A stretch of 48,469 nt of DNA, taken from NCBI GenBank assembly GCA_016290315.1, contig JAEETK010000006.1, positions 1-48,469 of the forward strand. Reading direction: 5' to 3'. Position numbers and translations under genes: made by a program. A model generated the notes under the pieces. The model was not told where the DNA came from. It worked only from the letters and a program-made list of their open reading frames with translations, and searched no databases. How positions within the stretch are numbered: the stretch's first letter is position 1; each line of letters opens with the position of its first letter. This document shows, piece after piece, positions 15,629 through 27,065 of the stretch. This stretch comes from Candidatus Saccharimonadota bacterium. GTDB lineage: Bacteria > Patescibacteriota > Saccharimonadia > Saccharimonadales > Saccharimonadaceae.

Positions 15629-15657
15629 TTGACAAAACGATTTTAATATGATATAAT
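15629..15657 (+). promoter_or_regulatory. Promoter of the ETNSS / radical SAM operon
   Basis: TTGACA (15629-15634), 17-nt spacer, TATAAT (15652-15657). Short inverted repeats (CGAATT/AATTCG and AACCTT/AAGGTT) lie upstream at about 15560-15610. Confidence 0.85.
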
Positions 15658-15714
15658 TCAATTGATTTTTGTAACTTAACAATTTATTTTCGATGCGAAA
15701 GAGAGGAACCAAGT

Positions 15715-16137
15715 ATGATTATTAAAGTGAGACGAGGTTGTTATGAAACAAATTCGTCAATCGACCACGCGCTTGTTATTATGCCGGAAGAGGATAGTGA
15801 AAGGTGGGAAAACGATGACCATCTTTACGTCTATGTAGATAAATATTTCTACGCTTTCAAAAAATTAAGCGACGAAGAGAGGCCGATCTACATGAGACTG
15901 TACACCGAGGAAGAAGTGTTCGCATTTATCGAGAAGGTCTCCGGAAAAACAAAGGAAGAGATCCTTGACGATATGGACGATGAATATGAGGATGTGGCAG
16001 GTATGCTGTACGGCGAATACGACTTCGCTACTTCTGAAATATGGAATGATAATGATGAATATTATCATGACGTATATGAGTACACTGCACCTTCGGGAGA
16101 ACGTTTCAAGATCCACGCAAGATATTGCAATGGTTAA
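15715..16137 (+). CDS. ETNSS-motif protein, partner of the radical SAM gene
   Basis: 140 residues opening MIIKVRRGCYETNSSIDHAL. This start (IKVRRGxxETNSSSxHSL in relatives) is seen in hypothetical proteins of phages and Firmicutes, and I recall it next to radical SAM genes; function unknown. The rest is very acidic (DDMDDEYED; WNDNDEYYHDVYEY). GAGAGGAA precedes the ATG. It ends 9 nt before the radical SAM gene, so they are one operon. It could be the substrate or a partner of that enzyme; this is inference. Confidence 0.7.
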   Translation: MIIKVRRGCYETNSSIDHALVIMPEEDSERWENDDHLYVYVDKYFYAFKKLSDEERPIYMRLYTEEEVFAFIEKVSGKTKEEILDDMDDEYEDVAGMLYGEYDFATSEIWNDNDEYYHDVYEYTAPSGERFKIHARYCNG

Positions 16138-16146
16138 GGGGGAATA

Positions 16147-17034
16147 ATGGCAAACATATTGTACGAGTATAGAAACGGCAATGCTCAGATAGAACTCTAT
16201 GCTGACGGAACGAGAATTATTCGGACAGAAGATGACATTCTCAATTTTGAGTACCCACTCAATAATGATATAACCATCACACATAAATGCGATGGCGGAT
16301 GCCCTTATTGCTATCTCGGATGTACGGAAAACGGAAAACATGCAGACATACTCAGCCATAAGTTTTTCGACACTCTGTTACCGGGTACGGAATGTGCCAT
16401 CAACCTGAATGATATGTCTCACCCTCAGCTCCTGGCTTTTCTGGGAAAAATGAAGAATAAGGGGATTGTCGTGAATGGCACGATCAACCAGAAGCACTTC
16501 ATGAAGTACTGGAAGGATTTATATCTGTTGACGATGCAGGGCTTGATCCATGGGGTAGGCGTATCTCTTATGGCTCCAACCGAAGAGCTATTTAAAGTGC
16601 TGCGCTACTTCCCGAATGCTGTAGTTCATGTAATCAACGGAATCGTTTCCGAGGACGATATCATGAAGATGGAAGGCCGGGGCATAAAGCTCTTGATCTT
16701 GGGCTATAAGGCACTTCGCCGAGGCGAAGCGTACTTGACTGCGAATAATGATGAAGTAGCAAAGAGGCAAAAGTTCCTCTATGACTATATTGCAGGAAAG
16801 CCCAAATTTAAGGTCATCAGTTTCGACAACCTGGCAATCGAGCAGCTTGCTGCTCGTCGCATCGTGACGGATGAACAATGGGAAACCATGTACCAGGGCG
16901 AAGAAGGCAGTGCAACGTTTGCTATTGATCTTGTGGATGGTACGTTTGCCGTGAGTTCGTCTGAAACAAAGACATTTCCTATCATGGATGATGTTCGGGA
17001 GATGTTTAAGGTAGTAAAAGCGCAATGCGCATAA
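16147..17034 (+). CDS. Radical SAM protein (phage-type)
   Basis: 295 residues. The iron-sulfur motif CxxxCxxC is at C48, C52 and C55 (HKCDGGCPYCY), with a further C59 and the following GKHADI typical of a radical SAM group found with ETNSS proteins in phages and Firmicutes. An HPQLLAFLGKMKNKGIVVNG segment matches the barrel strand after the glycine-rich motif; that motif itself is altered here (AINLNDMSHP instead of AIGGGNPLSHP). It should bind a 4Fe-4S cluster and SAM. The reaction and substrate are unknown; the gene just upstream is the obvious candidate partner. Confidence 0.8.
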   Translation: MANILYEYRNGNAQIELYADGTRIIRTEDDILNFEYPLNNDITITHKCDGGCPYCYLGCTENGKHADILSHKFFDTLLPGTECAINLNDMSHPQLLAFLGKMKNKGIVVNGTINQKHFMKYWKDLYLLTMQGLIHGVGVSLMAPTEELFKVLRYFPNAVVHVINGIVSEDDIMKMEGRGIKLLILGYKALRRGEAYLTANNDEVAKRQKFLYDYIAGKPKFKVISFDNLAIEQLAARRIVTDEQWETMYQGEEGSATFAIDLVDGTFAVSSSETKTFPIMDDVREMFKVVKAQCA

Positions 17035-17068
17035 TACGCTACCGGTTAAGTAAGCAAATGAGAATCAC

Positions 17069-17094
17069 CCCGCCGCTAACGCGGCGGGTTTTTT
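17069..17094 (+). terminator. Terminator of the radical SAM operon
   Basis: CCCGCCGC pairs with GCGGCGGG across a TAAC loop, followed by six T. Confidence 0.9.
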
Positions 17095-17132
17095 ATTGGT
17101 TCAACAAAATCCTTCAGGCATTTTTCGTTATC

Positions 17133-17878: not shown

Positions 17879-19630
17879 ATGAAGCAGTCGTTATTTAGAA
17901 AAATATACGGTATTTTAGATAAAAAACAGAAGATAAGTTTTTTGTTAGTATTATTACTCCTTGGAATATCGGCAATACTTAGCCAGATTACTCCGCTTGC
18001 TATCGGCTATCTTACAGATCAGGTTTTGGCTCAGGATGAGATAGTTTTCACGGCGGTCATTCCAATTCTGCTAGTTATTTTAGTAGTTACCGTCTCCAAT
18101 GAAATTATAAAAGTAATCAGGCGACTGATGATTGAAGGCGTTGCCACAAAGGTGGAGCTTAGAGCGAGAACAAAAGCTTCCAGTTCTCTAATGACGGCGC
18201 CACTATCGTATTTTCGTAAGCACATGACGGGCAATATTCACGGTCGCCTCAATCGTAGCATAGAAGGGGTGTCAAAACTCGTAAAACTGGTGTTTATGGA
18301 TTTTGCCCCAGCTATAGCCACGGGCGTTGCTGCAATTGTTGTAATTTTTACACAGCTACCTCCATTGGTCGCACTTTTGATAATCGCAGTAATACCGGTT
18401 GGACTTATTATCGTATGGCGCCAAATCGAGACCCAACGTGGCATACGTGTAGATTTAATGGAGCAGAAAGCCGAAATGGATGGAACTATGGTAGAGTTGC
18501 TTGGCGGCATTGAAACTATTCGCTCCTTGAACAGTGTCGATATGGAAGTATCGCGCGTCGAAAGCAAATCGAGTAATCTCCGTTCAAGAGAAATGAAGCA
18601 TCACAAATCTATGGCATTCTATGATTGTGTCAAGTTTATTAATGAAGCTGTTTTTACTGTCCTAGTTATTGCCATTTCTGTAGTGCTAGCCTCGAACGGT
18701 ATCATTGCGGTGGGTTCTATTTTAACTATCTATCTATGTTTTACTCAGCTAACCGCCCCACTTCGCGAGTTGCATAGAATTCTAGACGAATTATCCGAGT
18801 GTAAAGTGCTCGCAGATGACTATTTCAAGATTGCGGAGTTGCCAAAAGATTTCTCGTATCAAACGAGCGATAAATACTACGATGAAATCATTAATAACAA
18901 TGTCTTGCTGAAACATGTTTCAATGGGTTACGATGAGGAGCCAGACAAGAAGATATTAAACAACATTGATCTAGAAATAAACAAAGGAGAATTTATCGGG
19001 ATTGTTGGCCCAAGTGGTTGCGGAAAGTCGACTCTAATTAAGATAATTGACAAGCTAGAACAGGCAAGTGGGGAAATTAGAATTGGCGGTATTGATTTAT
19101 CAAAGCTCAGCCGTGCGGAGATTGCAAAATCTATAGCTTTAGTTCCGCAGACTCCTTTCTTAGTGGCCGGGACTATTGCTGAGAATATTGCTTATGGTCT
19201 AGAGGAAAATATTTCCCCAGAAGCAATTGCGGAGGCTGCCAAAAGCGCAAATCTCGAAGAAACTATTAATAACCTCCCCAAAAAATATAACTTTATGATT
19301 TCAGAAGGCGGCAGAAATTTGTCGGGCGGACAACGTCAGCGCATAGCGCTTGCTCGCATTTTTCTACGAAAACCAAAGATTCTGATATTGGATGAAGCAA
19401 CTTCCGCGCTCGACAATACGTCCGAAAAACATGTGCAAAAAGAAATTGAAAAACTAAAAGAAGAATACAACACCACTATTATATCTATTGCGCATAGGTT
19501 GACCACGCTACAAAACTGCGACGAAATAATCGTAATAGATAAAGGAAAAATAGTTCAGAGGGGCACCTTTAGTGAACTTTCCGATACTCCCGGCATCTTC
19601 CAAGATATGAAGAATGGCGTACTAAAATAG
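17879..19630 (+). CDS. ABC exporter, fused permease and ATPase (MsbA/LmrA type)
   Basis: 583 residues. The N-terminal half is a six-helix type I exporter domain; the C-terminal half is the nucleotide-binding domain with Walker A GPSGCGKST, signature LSGGQRQR, Walker B ILILDEATSALD and the switch histidine in SIAHR. It works as a homodimer or heterodimer at the cytoplasmic membrane to export a lipid, drug or peptide; the substrate is not evident. An extended -10 (TGCTATAAT; hexamer 17862-17867) lies 11 nt before the chosen ATG; the nearer ATG at 17871 is out of frame and runs into a stop after two codons. Confidence 0.9.
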   Translation: MKQSLFRKIYGILDKKQKISFLLVLLLLGISAILSQITPLAIGYLTDQVLAQDEIVFTAVIPILLVILVVTVSNEIIKVIRRLMIEGVATKVELRARTKASSSLMTAPLSYFRKHMTGNIHGRLNRSIEGVSKLVKLVFMDFAPAIATGVAAIVVIFTQLPPLVALLIIAVIPVGLIIVWRQIETQRGIRVDLMEQKAEMDGTMVELLGGIETIRSLNSVDMEVSRVESKSSNLRSREMKHHKSMAFYDCVKFINEAVFTVLVIAISVVLASNGIIAVGSILTIYLCFTQLTAPLRELHRILDELSECKVLADDYFKIAELPKDFSYQTSDKYYDEIINNNVLLKHVSMGYDEEPDKKILNNIDLEINKGEFIGIVGPSGCGKSTLIKIIDKLEQASGEIRIGGIDLSKLSRAEIAKSIALVPQTPFLVAGTIAENIAYGLEENISPEAIAEAAKSANLEETINNLPKKYNFMISEGGRNLSGGQRQRIALARIFLRKPKILILDEATSALDNTSEKHVQKEIEKLKEEYNTTIISIAHRLTTLQNCDEIIVIDKGKIVQRGTFSELSDTPGIFQDMKNGVLK

Positions 19631-23734: not shown

Positions 23735-23756
23735 ATATCGCCAAGGCGCTAGAGCA
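23735..23756 (+). repeat. 22-bp direct repeat, left copy
   Basis: Identical to 24470-24491; core TATCGCCAAGGCGCTAGAGC, containing the small palindrome CGCCAAGGCG. The pair brackets the promoter, the tandem ncRNA and the terminator exactly, with no coding sequence between. Confidence 0.85.
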
Positions 23757-23768
23757 AATATGTAAGTA

Positions 23769-23797
23769 TTGACAAAAATTACAACGTGTGCTATAAT
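23769..23797 (+). promoter_or_regulatory. Promoter of the tandem ncRNA
   Basis: TTGACA (23769-23774), 17-nt spacer, TATAAT (23792-23797). Transcription should start near 23804, at the first base of repeat unit 1. Confidence 0.85.
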
Positions 23798-23804
23798 TCA
23801 ATCA

Positions 23805-24104
23805 TGCTCAAATGACATCCCCAGTGCCAAATGGGCGCAACTTGAACAATTGCCACCGTATTGTCCTACGATGGAGCAACAATTGGGATAGTATATTAGT
23901 ATATTTTAAATGTGTGGGACACCTCCAGTCTTAGCCGAAAAGGCTGGAACGCATCCTGGGGCTTCGAAATGACCACAGAAAGTGGTGAAATTAAAAAATG
24001 GGGCGAGTAGGGGCTCCTATAAAGAAGACGGTTTCAAGGCAAAGCCCTCAGAGGGCAAAATGGGAATCGATCGCTTCACTCTACGCAGGTCTCAATCCTG
24101 CAAC
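23805..24104 (+). repeat. ncRNA repeat unit 1
   Basis: Begins TGCTCAAATGACATCCCC and ends with the GCAGG/CCTGC hairpin plus AAC. Contains a small GCCCT-CAG-AGGGC hairpin (about 24044-24056) absent from unit 2. Confidence 0.8.
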
Positions 24105-24116
24105 ATGGCTGAACTG

Positions 24117-24396
24117 TGCTCAAATGACATCCCCAGTGTCAAATGGGCGCAACTTGAACAATTGCCACCGCATTGTCCTGCGATGGAACAGCAATTGGGA
24201 TAGTGTAAATGTGTGGGACACCTTCAGTCTTAGCCGAAAAGGCTGGAGCGCATCCTGGGGCTTCCGAAAGGAAGGAAACGACCACAGAAAGTGGTGAAAT
24301 TTAAAAATGGGGCGAGTAGGGGCTCCTATAAAGAAGGCGGTTTCAAGGCAAATGGGAATCGATCTCTTCACTCTACGCAGGTCTCAATCCTGCAAC
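24117..24396 (+). repeat. ncRNA repeat unit 2
   Basis: Same sequence as unit 1 with scattered changes, one insertion (GGAAGGAAAC region near 24270) and two deletions. It runs into the terminator. Confidence 0.8.
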
Positions 24397-24402
24397 CCCC
24401 CA

Positions 24403-24434
24403 CCCCCGTAGAAGGCTACGGGGGTTTCTTTTTT
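24403..24434 (+). terminator. Terminator of the ncRNA
   Basis: CCCCCGTAG pairs with CTACGGGGG across an AAGG loop, followed by TTTCTTTTTT. Confidence 0.95.
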
Positions 24435-24469
24435 CTGAAAAAAAGACCAAAGTTTATGGGGTCACACGA

Positions 24470-24491
24470 ATATCGCCAAGGCGCTAGAGCA
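24470..24491 (+). repeat. 22-bp direct repeat, right copy
   Basis: Identical to 23735-23756. It contains the stop codon of the papain-fold gene (CTA at 24484-24486 on the plus strand). Confidence 0.85.
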
Positions 24492-25044
24492 GATACTTTG
24501 AATCCTCGATCTCATCAAAATCCATCGTAAAATTGACGCTGTTATATTTTAATATGTCTTCGTTTAATTCTTTATTATCCAACCTTACGATGAAGGAATT
24601 CTTATAATTTATATCTCTAAAATAATAACTCCCGTCATCGCTATCAATATCTGCCAACAAGCCAGCTTGCGAATCCATGACGTATATCTCGCCATCGATG
24701 TTTAGCAGAATAAATTCATGTCCTCCAGAAGAACCCTTCCAGTTCACGTGGCAATAAAACCTTTTCCCGCTCAAGGCTTTTTGTCTTAATTCGTTTTCAT
24801 TGCGAAAATGTATTTTTCTAGCATATTTGACTATGTTTGCATCCGTGAACTTAAAAATGACATCTCTAGGGGAATATACCGGCCTAGGCAGAATATCGAT
24901 GCCTCTAAATTGGGCTTCGGTACACCATGTACATAGTAGGCAGTTTTGGTTTCCGACTGGTTCTTTCTTATCTTTTTCGACTTTGTTGCTAATTCTTTTT
25001 ACAATCTTTTGCGCAAATCGTTTAGTATTGGTGGCTTCTCTCAT
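24484..25044 (-). CDS. Papain-fold (Tox-PL / glutamine deamidase-like) protein
   Basis: 186 residues. The pattern NQNCLLCTWCTEAQFRGIDI, then GGHEFILLNIDGEIYVMDSQ and AG, matches the Tox-PL papain-fold family (PF15644), in which Cys, His and Asp/Gln form the active site: Cys35, His109, Asp124 and Gln126 here. Family members are deamidase or peptidase toxins and phage MuF-type C-terminal domains. There is no signal peptide; a basic N-terminal segment (AQKIVKRISNKVEKDKKE) could serve for membrane or nucleic-acid contact. With the transglutaminase-like gene it makes a pair of thiol enzymes that act on side-chain amides. No immunity gene is obvious. Confidence 0.65.
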   Translation of the reverse strand: MREATNTKRFAQKIVKRISNKVEKDKKEPVGNQNCLLCTWCTEAQFRGIDILPRPVYSPRDVIFKFTDANIVKYARKIHFRNENELRQKALSGKRFYCHVNWKGSSGGHEFILLNIDGEIYVMDSQAGLLADIDSDDGSYYFRDINYKNSFIVRLDNKELNEDILKYNSVNFTMDFDEIEDSKYLL

Positions 25045-25198: not shown

Positions 25199-26329
25199 AT
25201 GTACGGAGAGAGTTTGCAAGAGAAACTAAAAGTATTATATATAAATAATATGAATAGCCCCGAGGAAACAATAAATCAGCCTGAGCAGACAGATAATGTC
25301 GAGCCATTACCGTCCGAAGGCACGTCGTGGCAAAATCCAGGTGAGTTTCCTATTTTTAGGGGGAAAGCTTTGCCGCCTGAGGCGAATAAGGATACCAAGA
25401 AAAATAATAGAGAGGTAGCTAGATCGAAAGCGGAAAAACTATACCAGAGTGAATTGACCAGAGCATACGAAGCCGATAAGGAAGGTGTTCTAAAATTCCC
25501 TATCAAAGTTGGTGATAAGACAATTGACGGATATGAATTCGTTGGCTCAGATTTTAAAATGCTCGTTTCCGTTATTGGGGCAGTAGGACAATCGCTTGGG
25601 AATCACTCAAAAAATATAGACTTAAAGCGGTGGGCTAATGCGTCTAGAGATTATATTTCAACATCTTTGATTTCGAATAAAAAAATGAATTTGTTCGATA
25701 AGAATGGGTTAATATTCGGTTTTAACAATCTAAAAGACGGCGATTTTTTAAGTGCAGCACCCGCAGATCATGGGGTATTGAGAGATATTGGCAAAATGGG
25801 TCAATATAAAGACCAAGTAATGAATCCAGACGAGTTATTGGAAGCTACTGGCACTATAGATAGCTTAACCCCCTGGAATGAAGTAGAGATTAACGGCAAA
25901 ACTAAACCAGATTCAATAATTGTTTTTGGAGATTCGCAAGATGCAATAAGCGATGAGGCCAAGAAAGCAGCAGAATTTTTTGGAGTACCGATTTATTTAA
26001 TTCGGACAGATATTTACGGCGAGCCCACTGATAGACATGACGACAGAGAGGTTTCTGAAAACGTTAAAGAGTTTTGGGCGAATCGAGATAATCCTGTTTC
26101 TGGGCGAATAAAACAAGAAAGAAATGCCCTTCTCGAAGAGGCAAAGTCTTTCTTTGAAACTGGAGAAGTTGGAGAGCGAATCGTGAAATATCTAGGCGAT
26201 TACGAAGGCGAATTGCAAACTGTAAAAGAAGCAAGCTCTACTAAAGAGGAATTTGTTAGAAATCTTATAGCTGCACTAGGCCAAGACGGGATAGCAGCGC
26301 TAAAAGAGCAAATCAGAGACGGCGATTAA
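25199..26329 (+). CDS. Unknown protein with a GVPI domain, divergent from the papain-fold gene
   Basis: 376 residues from the ATG at 25199; an ATG at 25250 (MNSPEETINQPEQ) with a TATA-like box 6 nt ahead is an alternative start. The N-terminal 90 residues are hydrophilic and low in complexity. Residues about 105-265 contain ASRDYISTSLISNKKMN, NGLIFGFNN, WNEVEINGKTKPDSIIVFGD and AKKAAEFFGVPIYLIRTD, the same motif series as in the proteins at 4702 and 9990. STS followed by a strand with E-x-E is reminiscent of ADP-ribosyltransferases, but this is too weak to assign. The C-terminus is helical. Confidence 0.6.
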   Translation: MYGESLQEKLKVLYINNMNSPEETINQPEQTDNVEPLPSEGTSWQNPGEFPIFRGKALPPEANKDTKKNNREVARSKAEKLYQSELTRAYEADKEGVLKFPIKVGDKTIDGYEFVGSDFKMLVSVIGAVGQSLGNHSKNIDLKRWANASRDYISTSLISNKKMNLFDKNGLIFGFNNLKDGDFLSAAPADHGVLRDIGKMGQYKDQVMNPDELLEATGTIDSLTPWNEVEINGKTKPDSIIVFGDSQDAISDEAKKAAEFFGVPIYLIRTDIYGEPTDRHDDREVSENVKEFWANRDNPVSGRIKQERNALLEEAKSFFETGEVGERIVKYLGDYEGELQTVKEASSTKEEFVRNLIAALGQDGIAALKEQIRDGD

Positions 26330-26891: not shown

Positions 26892-27065
26892 AAATAATTG
26901 GTGGATCTTAGCTCGCAAAGTTAGAACTATAATCCAGGCCGATATTTACAGAACATCAGTGCGTCGCGCAAAAAAACTGATAATTGTAGTATTATAGTCA
27001 TAAGCGCAATGTGCGCTTCAGTTTAGATACCTACCTCTTAAATAATTAAAAGAATAAACGTAAAT

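Follow-up and report, generated by a model that had tools for sequence, protein, structure and literature searches.

A radical SAM enzyme and an N-terminally tagged ETNSS protein in a Saccharibacteria chromosome: a putative enzyme-substrate pair that appears to be mostly a phage system

Analysis of a 48,469-nucleotide stretch of DNA from a Candidatus Saccharimonadota bacterium (the window, by which we mean the whole of that stretch) has revealed a two-gene cassette in which a protein with an N-terminal ETNSS tag is encoded ahead of a radical SAM enzyme (rSAM). We lean, without strong conviction, towards the view that the two constitute an enzyme-substrate system, in which the rSAM acts on full-size proteins by modifying their N-terminal NSS(S) segment; neither a reaction nor a product nor a complex has been observed. 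An earlier note on this DNA had suggested that the ETNSS segment could be the modified substrate, and as an inference this is still the best reading. In the mechanism that we infer, as to binding, reaction, residue and biological purpose alike, the rSAM would bind the N-terminal strand of the ETNSS protein (entry of the tag into the active site has not been established), the neighbouring (T)NSS(S)xH segment would undergo a radical-based covalent change, with the Ser-Ser pair as its most probable site, and the remainder of the ETNSS protein would be a functional body that either depends on the modified N-terminus or bears it. In phages a single enzyme would serve several tagged proteins, or one that is fused to the enzyme, and the pair in Saccharibacteria, derived from phage-like stock, would have been kept under purifying selection.

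Judged from its sequence, the cassette is one promoter-to-terminator unit in the Saccharibacteria chromosome, comprising two ORFs with a stop-to-start gap of 9 nt (Table 1). Co-transcription from a consensus promoter, as claimed in the earlier note, is well supported in this way, by the full match of the promoter and by the terminator behind the rSAM, but there are no RNA data. The sister cassette, at a locus that we call L072, has TTGACA-17-TATAAT at the equivalent place. Site totals (7 promoter-like and 2 terminator-like) were near the shuffled means of 4.9 and 1.2. The window's genome comprises 1.2 Mb in 74 contigs, and ordinary chromosomal genes surround the cassette (RF1, MurB, FtsX, ECF transporter), with an ABC transporter gene at 17879-19630; the flanks of the cassette differ in the sister genome. 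A prophage in the window is unsupported, with 0 of 30 Pfam-scanned window proteins matching phage structural or replication families (the remaining window ORFs were outside the scan), and a known anti-phage defence gene was likewise rejected, as neither window protein matches PADLOC.

Table 1. Features of the cassette in the window (predicted from sequence and models)
Feature	Position	Strand	Remarks
Sigma-70 promoter TTGACA-17-TATAAT, extended -10 (TG)	15629..15657	+	12/12 consensus matches; only such promoter-like site
ETNSS protein, 140 aa, short type	15715..16137	+	ORF starts MIIKVRRGCYETNSSIDHAL...
N-terminal strand MIIKVRRGCY, proposed leader-like docking strand	15715..15744	+	pLDDT about 80 (block 1-10), strand 2-6; likewise in fused L064
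ETNSSIDH, proposed modification site, variant of ETNSSSTH (third Ser to Ile)	15745..15768	+	residues 13-20 below pLDDT 50
Radical SAM enzyme, 295 aa, CDGGCPYC ... GKHADI	16147..17034	+	one [4Fe-4S] cluster motif; auxiliary-cluster cysteines not conserved
N-terminal beta extension, from ILYEYRNGNAQIELYADGTRIIRT, three predicted strands	16156..16266	+	SkfB/SuiB structural match begins here
CDGGCPYC, the CxxxCxxC cluster motif	16288..16311	+	C48, C52, C55 invariant, 25 rows
GKHADI motif	16333..16350	+	G63, H65 nearly invariant in 25-row alignment
NLND at glycine-motif position	16402..16413	+	GGGN/GGGD in 15/25 close rows; GGGE in fused relatives
Intrinsic terminator, GC-rich, closing the cassette	17069..17088	+	only terminator-like sites found, behind rSAM; L072 homology stops at window 17099

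Other features of these loci were noted in passing. A dispersed intergenic repeat of ~50-68 bp with the core CTTAGTTCGCAAAGTTAGAACCATAATCCAGGC occurs at window 26898-26947 and at about 2195, 2960, 4735 and 11785 of L072, with 8 matches in the genome G021 (including the query itself) and 1 in the window's genome. In L072 one copy immediately precedes the cassette, and a degenerate look-alike was seen by eye near window 15580; the repeat might be a marker of cassette boundaries. Window 23735-24495 holds a tandem duplication of ~300 bp (repeat families D1-D4, 92-98% identical) to which no function was assigned, and the gene at window 25199-26329, without a Pfam match, has 84% DNA identity to L072 10649-11728 in the twin's locus, where it lies at a different distance from the cassette.

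The pairing of enzyme and tagged protein was observed computationally from both sides. An rSAM-first search with a profile of five rSAM sequences yielded 64 viral-contig loci, of which 48 (L008-L055) were closer, and in 45 of these 48 there was a same-strand ORF starting about MKxxIRxxVFETNSSSxHS. The misses were L020 and L054, cut upstream and downstream of the rSAM, respectively, and L030, which is uncut and has an rSAM without a tagged ORF; a stricter tag count gave 44/48, since L027 has no ATG at the start. All 8 rSAM loci from the public genome collection had an ETNSS ORF, these being the Saccharibacteria twin and MAGs called Tenericutes, Clostridia, Anaerocolumna, Acholeplasmataceae, Erysipelotrichaceae, Bacillota and Bacteroidaceae (some contigs may be phage). 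Among loci with a tagged ORF, the nearest one was no more than 100 nt from the rSAM ORF in 30 of 45 distinct loci and no more than 1,000 nt away in 42. The tag-first search relied on a profile built from 18 GNDN-type ETNSS proteins and free of rSAM sequences, giving 177 matches and 80 loci kept; the scan filter was FETNSSS[TM], so the matched proteins were motif-selected and their paralogs were not. An rSAM lay within 8 kb in 73 of the 80 loci. Among the seven misses, the tagged ORF is at most 500 nt from a contig end in L181, L208 and L214, L190 is truncated 1.3 kb upstream, and L207, L222 and L223 contain no rSAM in the 5.7 kb or more of sequence available on either side of their tagged ORFs. 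As linkage controls, standing in for random viral contigs, we relied on this reverse search and on a strand count: the tag test found 0 tagged ORFs opposite the rSAM strand in 1.25 Mb of related loci, and all tagged ORFs in three sets (74, 11 and 168) were on the strand of the locus-defining match. The earlier note had proposed to check gene pairing across genomes and would have been refuted had the two genes usually been unlinked elsewhere; they are linked in the forward (45/48 and 8/8) and in the reverse direction (73/80). On these data the enzyme-tagged protein pairing appears to be mostly a phage system.

Tagged proteins may accompany their enzyme in numbers, with four ETNSS genes directly behind the rSAM in Lak megaphage B7 and five in Lak-A2, and with 0-5 tagged ORFs per locus in the rSAM-first set and 1-6 in the tag-first set. 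Comparison of same-locus paralogs revealed a conserved tag on divergent bodies, median identity being 68-73% over the first 22 residues vs. 23-26% after (45, 4 and 157 pairs in the three sets). The lists of tagged ORFs came from motif tests demanding N-S, which in part predetermines the counts at these two letters; of 60 distinct proteins in the rSAM-first set, all have the next Ser, 59 the third Ser and 58 the His. In the GNDN type, R7, ETNSSS, H, K55, Y58, D106, H107 and D141 are invariant (18 rows), and the fused proteins are similar. Departing tags are TNSSSASM in Thermus phage phiYS40 and TNSSSTMT and TNSSSSDR in L022. A few kb from the ETNSS array of Lak-B7 we also noted, on the minus strand, an ORF (L001 10145-10825) whose sequence, on inspection alone, resembles a TIGR02452/macro-domain protein.

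The window protein is of the short type, 13 relatives of which have R, ETNSS, H and W in common plus a YTTxSGExVxAFGxYGYDG-like C-terminal end. Its tag, ETNSSIDH, and that of the twin, ETNSSIEH, are without the third Ser, which is thus dispensable in the Saccharibacteria copies, and because of this we infer that the first Ser-Ser pair is the likeliest modification site. As for annotation, none of the standalone ETNSS proteins scanned was above Pfam or NCBIfam family cut-offs, and GNDN-type ETNSS proteins match PHROG 28997, of unknown function. The window ETNSS protein alone as query vs. phages gave no matches, nor did either single window protein vs. viral contigs, the relatives having emerged only with alignments, and a search of solved-structure sequences with the ETNSS protein gave no credible match.

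Natural fusion of the two partners was observed in a divergent branch, in which the tag domain is the N-terminus of an rSAM protein of about 460-495 aa with the layout VRxGFATNSSSSHS ... YIDHQS ... GGNDN ... CxxxCxxC. Of 16 divergent viral loci (L056-L071), 13 encode such a fusion, with an ETNSS domain of the GNDN type; in the other three, the tag is in a separate ORF (L067) or the locus is cut at a contig end (L059, L063). A second scan for fused proteins, by GGNDN and GGGE patterns and not by the tag, gave 213 matches from which 77 loci were kept. The three exceptions in this set are L102, cut by a contig end, and L160 and L161, without the N-domain; 73 of the 77 pass a loose tag test, and L125 carries the variant ANNSSSDH. 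Across 55 aligned fused proteins, R7, A11, S14, S15, S16 and H18 never vary; this alignment omits L125, L135, L138 and L156 (tags NNSSS or YNSSS), and the high rank of its conservation windows at residues 88-93 arises with gaps counted as the commonest letter. Cultured phages provide named examples: gp146c of Salmonella phage Arash (L080 4001-5431), annotated as a 'methyltransferase', is an ATNSSSSHS-domain/radical SAM fusion, the variant-tag gene of Thermus phage phiYS40, YS40_162, comes immediately before the rSAM, and the rSAM of Rhodothermus phage RM378 is followed two genes later by a tagged one, p106. In Ma-LMM01 the tagged protein and its rSAM are gp130 and gp128.

One tag on several divergent bodies per enzyme, as well as a tag domain naturally fused to the enzyme, would also be compatible with an unmodified tag that serves only as a docking peptide, with divergent bodies bringing one rSAM to different targets (RNA, nucleotides, host proteins), and the confident modeling of the N-terminal strand is in keeping with such docking. 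In fusions a docking tag would no longer need to be preserved, but S14-S16 and H18 show no variation across the 55 rows and a Ser run followed by His was retained in 74/74 of the second-scan loci with an uncut N-domain; moreover, the part that is best conserved is the segment left unplaced by the models rather than the strand. For these reasons we regard this alternative as unlikely, and continue to favor modification of the tag by the rSAM.

Predicted structures bear on the same segment. The AlphaFold2 model of the fused L064 protein (55 relatives) had a mean pLDDT of 87 and a pTM of 0.88, with only residues 12-19, exactly TNSSSSHS, and residues 91-95, a gappy region, under pLDDT 50; TNSSSSHS is among the best-conserved stretches of the fused protein, yet unplaced. 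The window pair was modeled as a single chain, read through the stop, with ten other in-frame pairs, giving a pTM of 0.69 and pLDDT values of 80 for residues 1-10, 38 for residues 11-20 (the lowest block), 42-72 for the remainder of the ETNSS protein and 83-98 for the enzyme. Four further ETNSS/linker stretches of the window pair were also under pLDDT 50, so that the fused model is the cleaner evidence and alone singles out the tag. In these models, a conserved unplaced stretch beside a confident strand can fit a leader plus a modified site, and a partner- or ligand-binding loop would fit too.

With respect to fold class, the predicted models have a partial TIM-barrel fold that aligns with SkfB, SuiB, EpeE, anSME and others. 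The nearest solved folds were SuiB (Z 21.9, rmsd 3.5, 287 aligned) and SkfB (Z 20.0) for the fused protein, and SkfB (Z 17.3, rmsd 3.5, 258 aligned) and SuiB (Z 16.9) for the window enzyme. Viperin was nearly equal for the fused protein (Z 19.5) and MoaA reached 17.5-18.0, so the fold is no proof of a peptide substrate; in addition, the lists of structural neighbours (VIA-align) re-examine Foldseek's own matches, and families not listed there are not excluded. For the window enzyme the match begins at residue 1 to 4 (NGN beta-hairpin), aligned with SkfB from residue 12 and with SuiB from residue 2 to 5, and three N-terminal strands with no recognition-element helices are predicted before the barrel. 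The N-terminal domain of SkfB, built of three strands and three helices, is a recognition element; the leaders of some related enzymes join the recognition-element sheet as an extra strand, though SuiA binds SuiB elsewhere (PMC6231123). On the predicted model, the window enzyme seems to have the recognition-element strands without the helices.

The presence of anSME among the structural neighbours, together with invariant residues of the GNDN type (18 rows) that resemble an active site, raises the alternative that the TNSSSxH loop belongs to the active site of the ETNSS domain, which would then be an enzyme or binding protein in its own right, matured by the rSAM as anSME makes formylglycine in sulfatases. 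This strikes us as somewhat less credible than the docking alternative, given that the short type, the window protein included, is without the DH and GNDN motifs and that the tag has no C/S-x-P/A-x-R, the sulfatase-type motif. It is quite improbable that NSSSxH is an unmodified phosphate- or nucleotide-binding loop with the ETNSS domain delivering a small molecule on which the rSAM acts. A Ser-rich loop, viperin-like fold neighbours (CTP users) and the match of the fused L064 protein to PADLOC viperin (pVip, E 6e-13) would speak for this, but AlphaFold2 did not place the loop, no scanned standalone ETNSS protein was above a curated family cut-off, and arrays of up to 6 bodies are unexpected for a simple carrier domain. 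The window enzyme did not match pVip, and in NCBIfam the viperin model was reached by relatives with at most 35.6 bits vs. a cut-off of 180, the window enzyme not being among the matches.

Returning to modification of the tag as the favored reading, we considered the features of the enzyme that would carry it out. The CxxxCxxC cysteines are invariant in the 55 fused rows as well, and beyond these three there is no invariant Cys across the 25 close rows that could indicate an auxiliary SPASM/Twitch cluster. The glycine-motif region of the window enzyme reads AINLND-MSHP, and the alteration remarked on previously is real; since the N-x-[NQ] form is found in 10 of 25 aligned rows (window, twin, both Lak phages and six viral contigs), it represents a subfamily form and no lesion. 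Recent decay of the window enzyme was ruled out by a dN/dS of 0.10 and by the N-x-N form also occurring in phages. The curated cut-off of PF04055 was passed by L013, L003 and the fused L056, L060 and L064 and failed by L008, and the window rSAM had zero Pfam matches. The window enzyme and relatives match PHROG 16999, 'Fe-S oxidoreductase', for which the library gives the name only and no function of the pair. The window rSAM matched a Lak phage with E 2e-73, a plasmid search gave 7 records at 25-32% identity, and matches to solved-structure sequences were weak only (QueE E 0.0025, SuiB E 0.007).

A parallel system involves an enzyme in which a SPASM domain is annotated and which is separate from the window class. 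In Vibrio phage D479, five ORFs that begin MKxRxGFVSNSSSSSF lie no more than 11 kb from an rSAM sharing 52% identity with the SPASM enzyme of Klebsiella phage Matisse, and Matisse itself carries two ORFs of this type about 20-24 kb from its rSAM. With a profile of the D479 and Matisse enzymes we obtained 27 viral loci, 19 of which have one to eight tagged ORFs within 10 kb (64 in total, none on the other strand). The other eight (L273, L287, L288 and L263-L267) are without a tagged ORF within 10 kb; the rSAMs of L263-L267 are 83-98% identical to that of Matisse. The tag classes have in common an Arg, an aromatic residue a few positions on, and then x-[TS]-N-S-S. In L280 and L281 (9519-15158), eight tagged ORFs (MKxRxxFVSNSSSxSF) lie beside one SPASM-type rSAM, and some of the bodies, by eye, start with Cys-containing stretches resembling zinc ribbons.

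A wider proposal, which we put forward only tentatively and with more doubt than the enzyme-substrate reading itself, is that phages run a general N-terminal tagging chemistry, in which one rSAM per phage would place the same unusual modification on the N-S-S-S of a whole group of dissimilar proteins as a shared prosthetic N-terminus. Two enzyme classes would do so in parallel, the single-cluster class with ETNSSSxH or ATNSSSxH and the SPASM class with VSNSSSSSF, and Saccharibacteria would have domesticated one pair.

Regarding origin, the two Saccharibacteria sequences pair with a support of 100 on a long stem in a quick rSAM tree of 88 rows, inside a clade of 31 rows (support 98) that includes 26 viral contigs or Lak phages (two Lak rows) and 3 Firmicutes/Tenericutes MAG loci. 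They group with L011, L033 and L209 (support 89), the nearest by path length being L008, L217, L009 and L012; the tree carries SH-aLRT support only and a long-branch warning. Among 100 genomes that we searched, two carry the rSAM plus ETNSS gene, namely that of the window and G021, which belongs to the same genus, and an even draw of 379 genomes of the phylum gave a full match only in the window's own, with one other weak partial match. Both the resemblance of the motifs to phage and Firmicutes genes and the lateral transfer from phage-like stock, as put forward earlier, are supported, the former by viral contigs, Lak phages and Firmicutes/Tenericutes MAG loci in the same rSAM clade, the latter by the nesting of the pair among phage-type rows. 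Because of this tree placement and the occurrence in so few genomes, acquisition of the pair by Saccharibacteria from phage-like stock is well supported. Over the stretch between promoter and terminator (window 15629-17099) the twin cassette shares 88% identity with that of the window, while the flanking DNA is without alignment, so that either the cassette moved or the DNA around it was rearranged. Between the two Saccharibacteria copies dN/dS was 0.10 for the rSAM and 0.47 for the ETNSS protein, and by this measure the window copy is kept, under purifying selection.

Several known systems resemble the pair in part. As with the SkfB/SuiB RiPP maturases, the rSAM gene adjoins the gene of the proposed substrate, and these are the closest solved folds, aligned from the N-terminal beta-strands on; in contrast to them, the tagged proteins are often in arrays with divergent bodies, and the window enzyme is without conserved auxiliary-cluster cysteines, and none of the helices of a complete recognition element is predicted between its strands and the barrel. 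RaS-RiPP systems share a precursor-like gene beside the maturase, with a conserved leader and a variable remainder (the precursor role being inferred here), but the proposed substrates in our case are whole proteins (140 aa in the window, 96-276 aa in standalone relatives) and not short peptides. anSME is an rSAM enzyme that acts on a residue of a folded protein, and anSMEs carry a SPASM domain; it is a structural neighbour of both the fused protein and the window enzyme, but there is no sulfatase Pfam match and no sulfatase motif in the tag. In the His-Xaa-Ser system (HxsABCD), rSAM enzymes are paired with a His/Ser-rich target protein; NCBIfam HxsB/HxsC weakly match some relatives, but the scores are far below cut-offs and no HxS repeats were seen in the tag. 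Overall, in the way it works the window pair most resembles a radical SAM maturase and its substrate, though it is no typical RiPP system because the proposed substrates are full-size and auxiliary-cluster cysteines are not conserved. In the open-access collection searched we found no description of the pair, with ETNSSSTH, TNSSSTH, TNSSSSH, SNSSSSSF, GFVSNSSS, ETNSSS and ATNSSSSH all unmatched (motifs given only in figures, or in papers outside that collection, would escape).

Beyond what the earlier note contained, our analysis adds tandem paralogs, natural fusions and the parallel SPASM system, and it names proteins for a direct test, namely the fusion of the cultured Salmonella phage and proteins of Thermus, Rhodothermus and Microcystis phages. 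If the proposed modification is true, one shared maturation step would account for many 'hypothetical' proteins of large phages, and radical protein modification would be added to phage biology, with a link to an episymbiotic bacterium.
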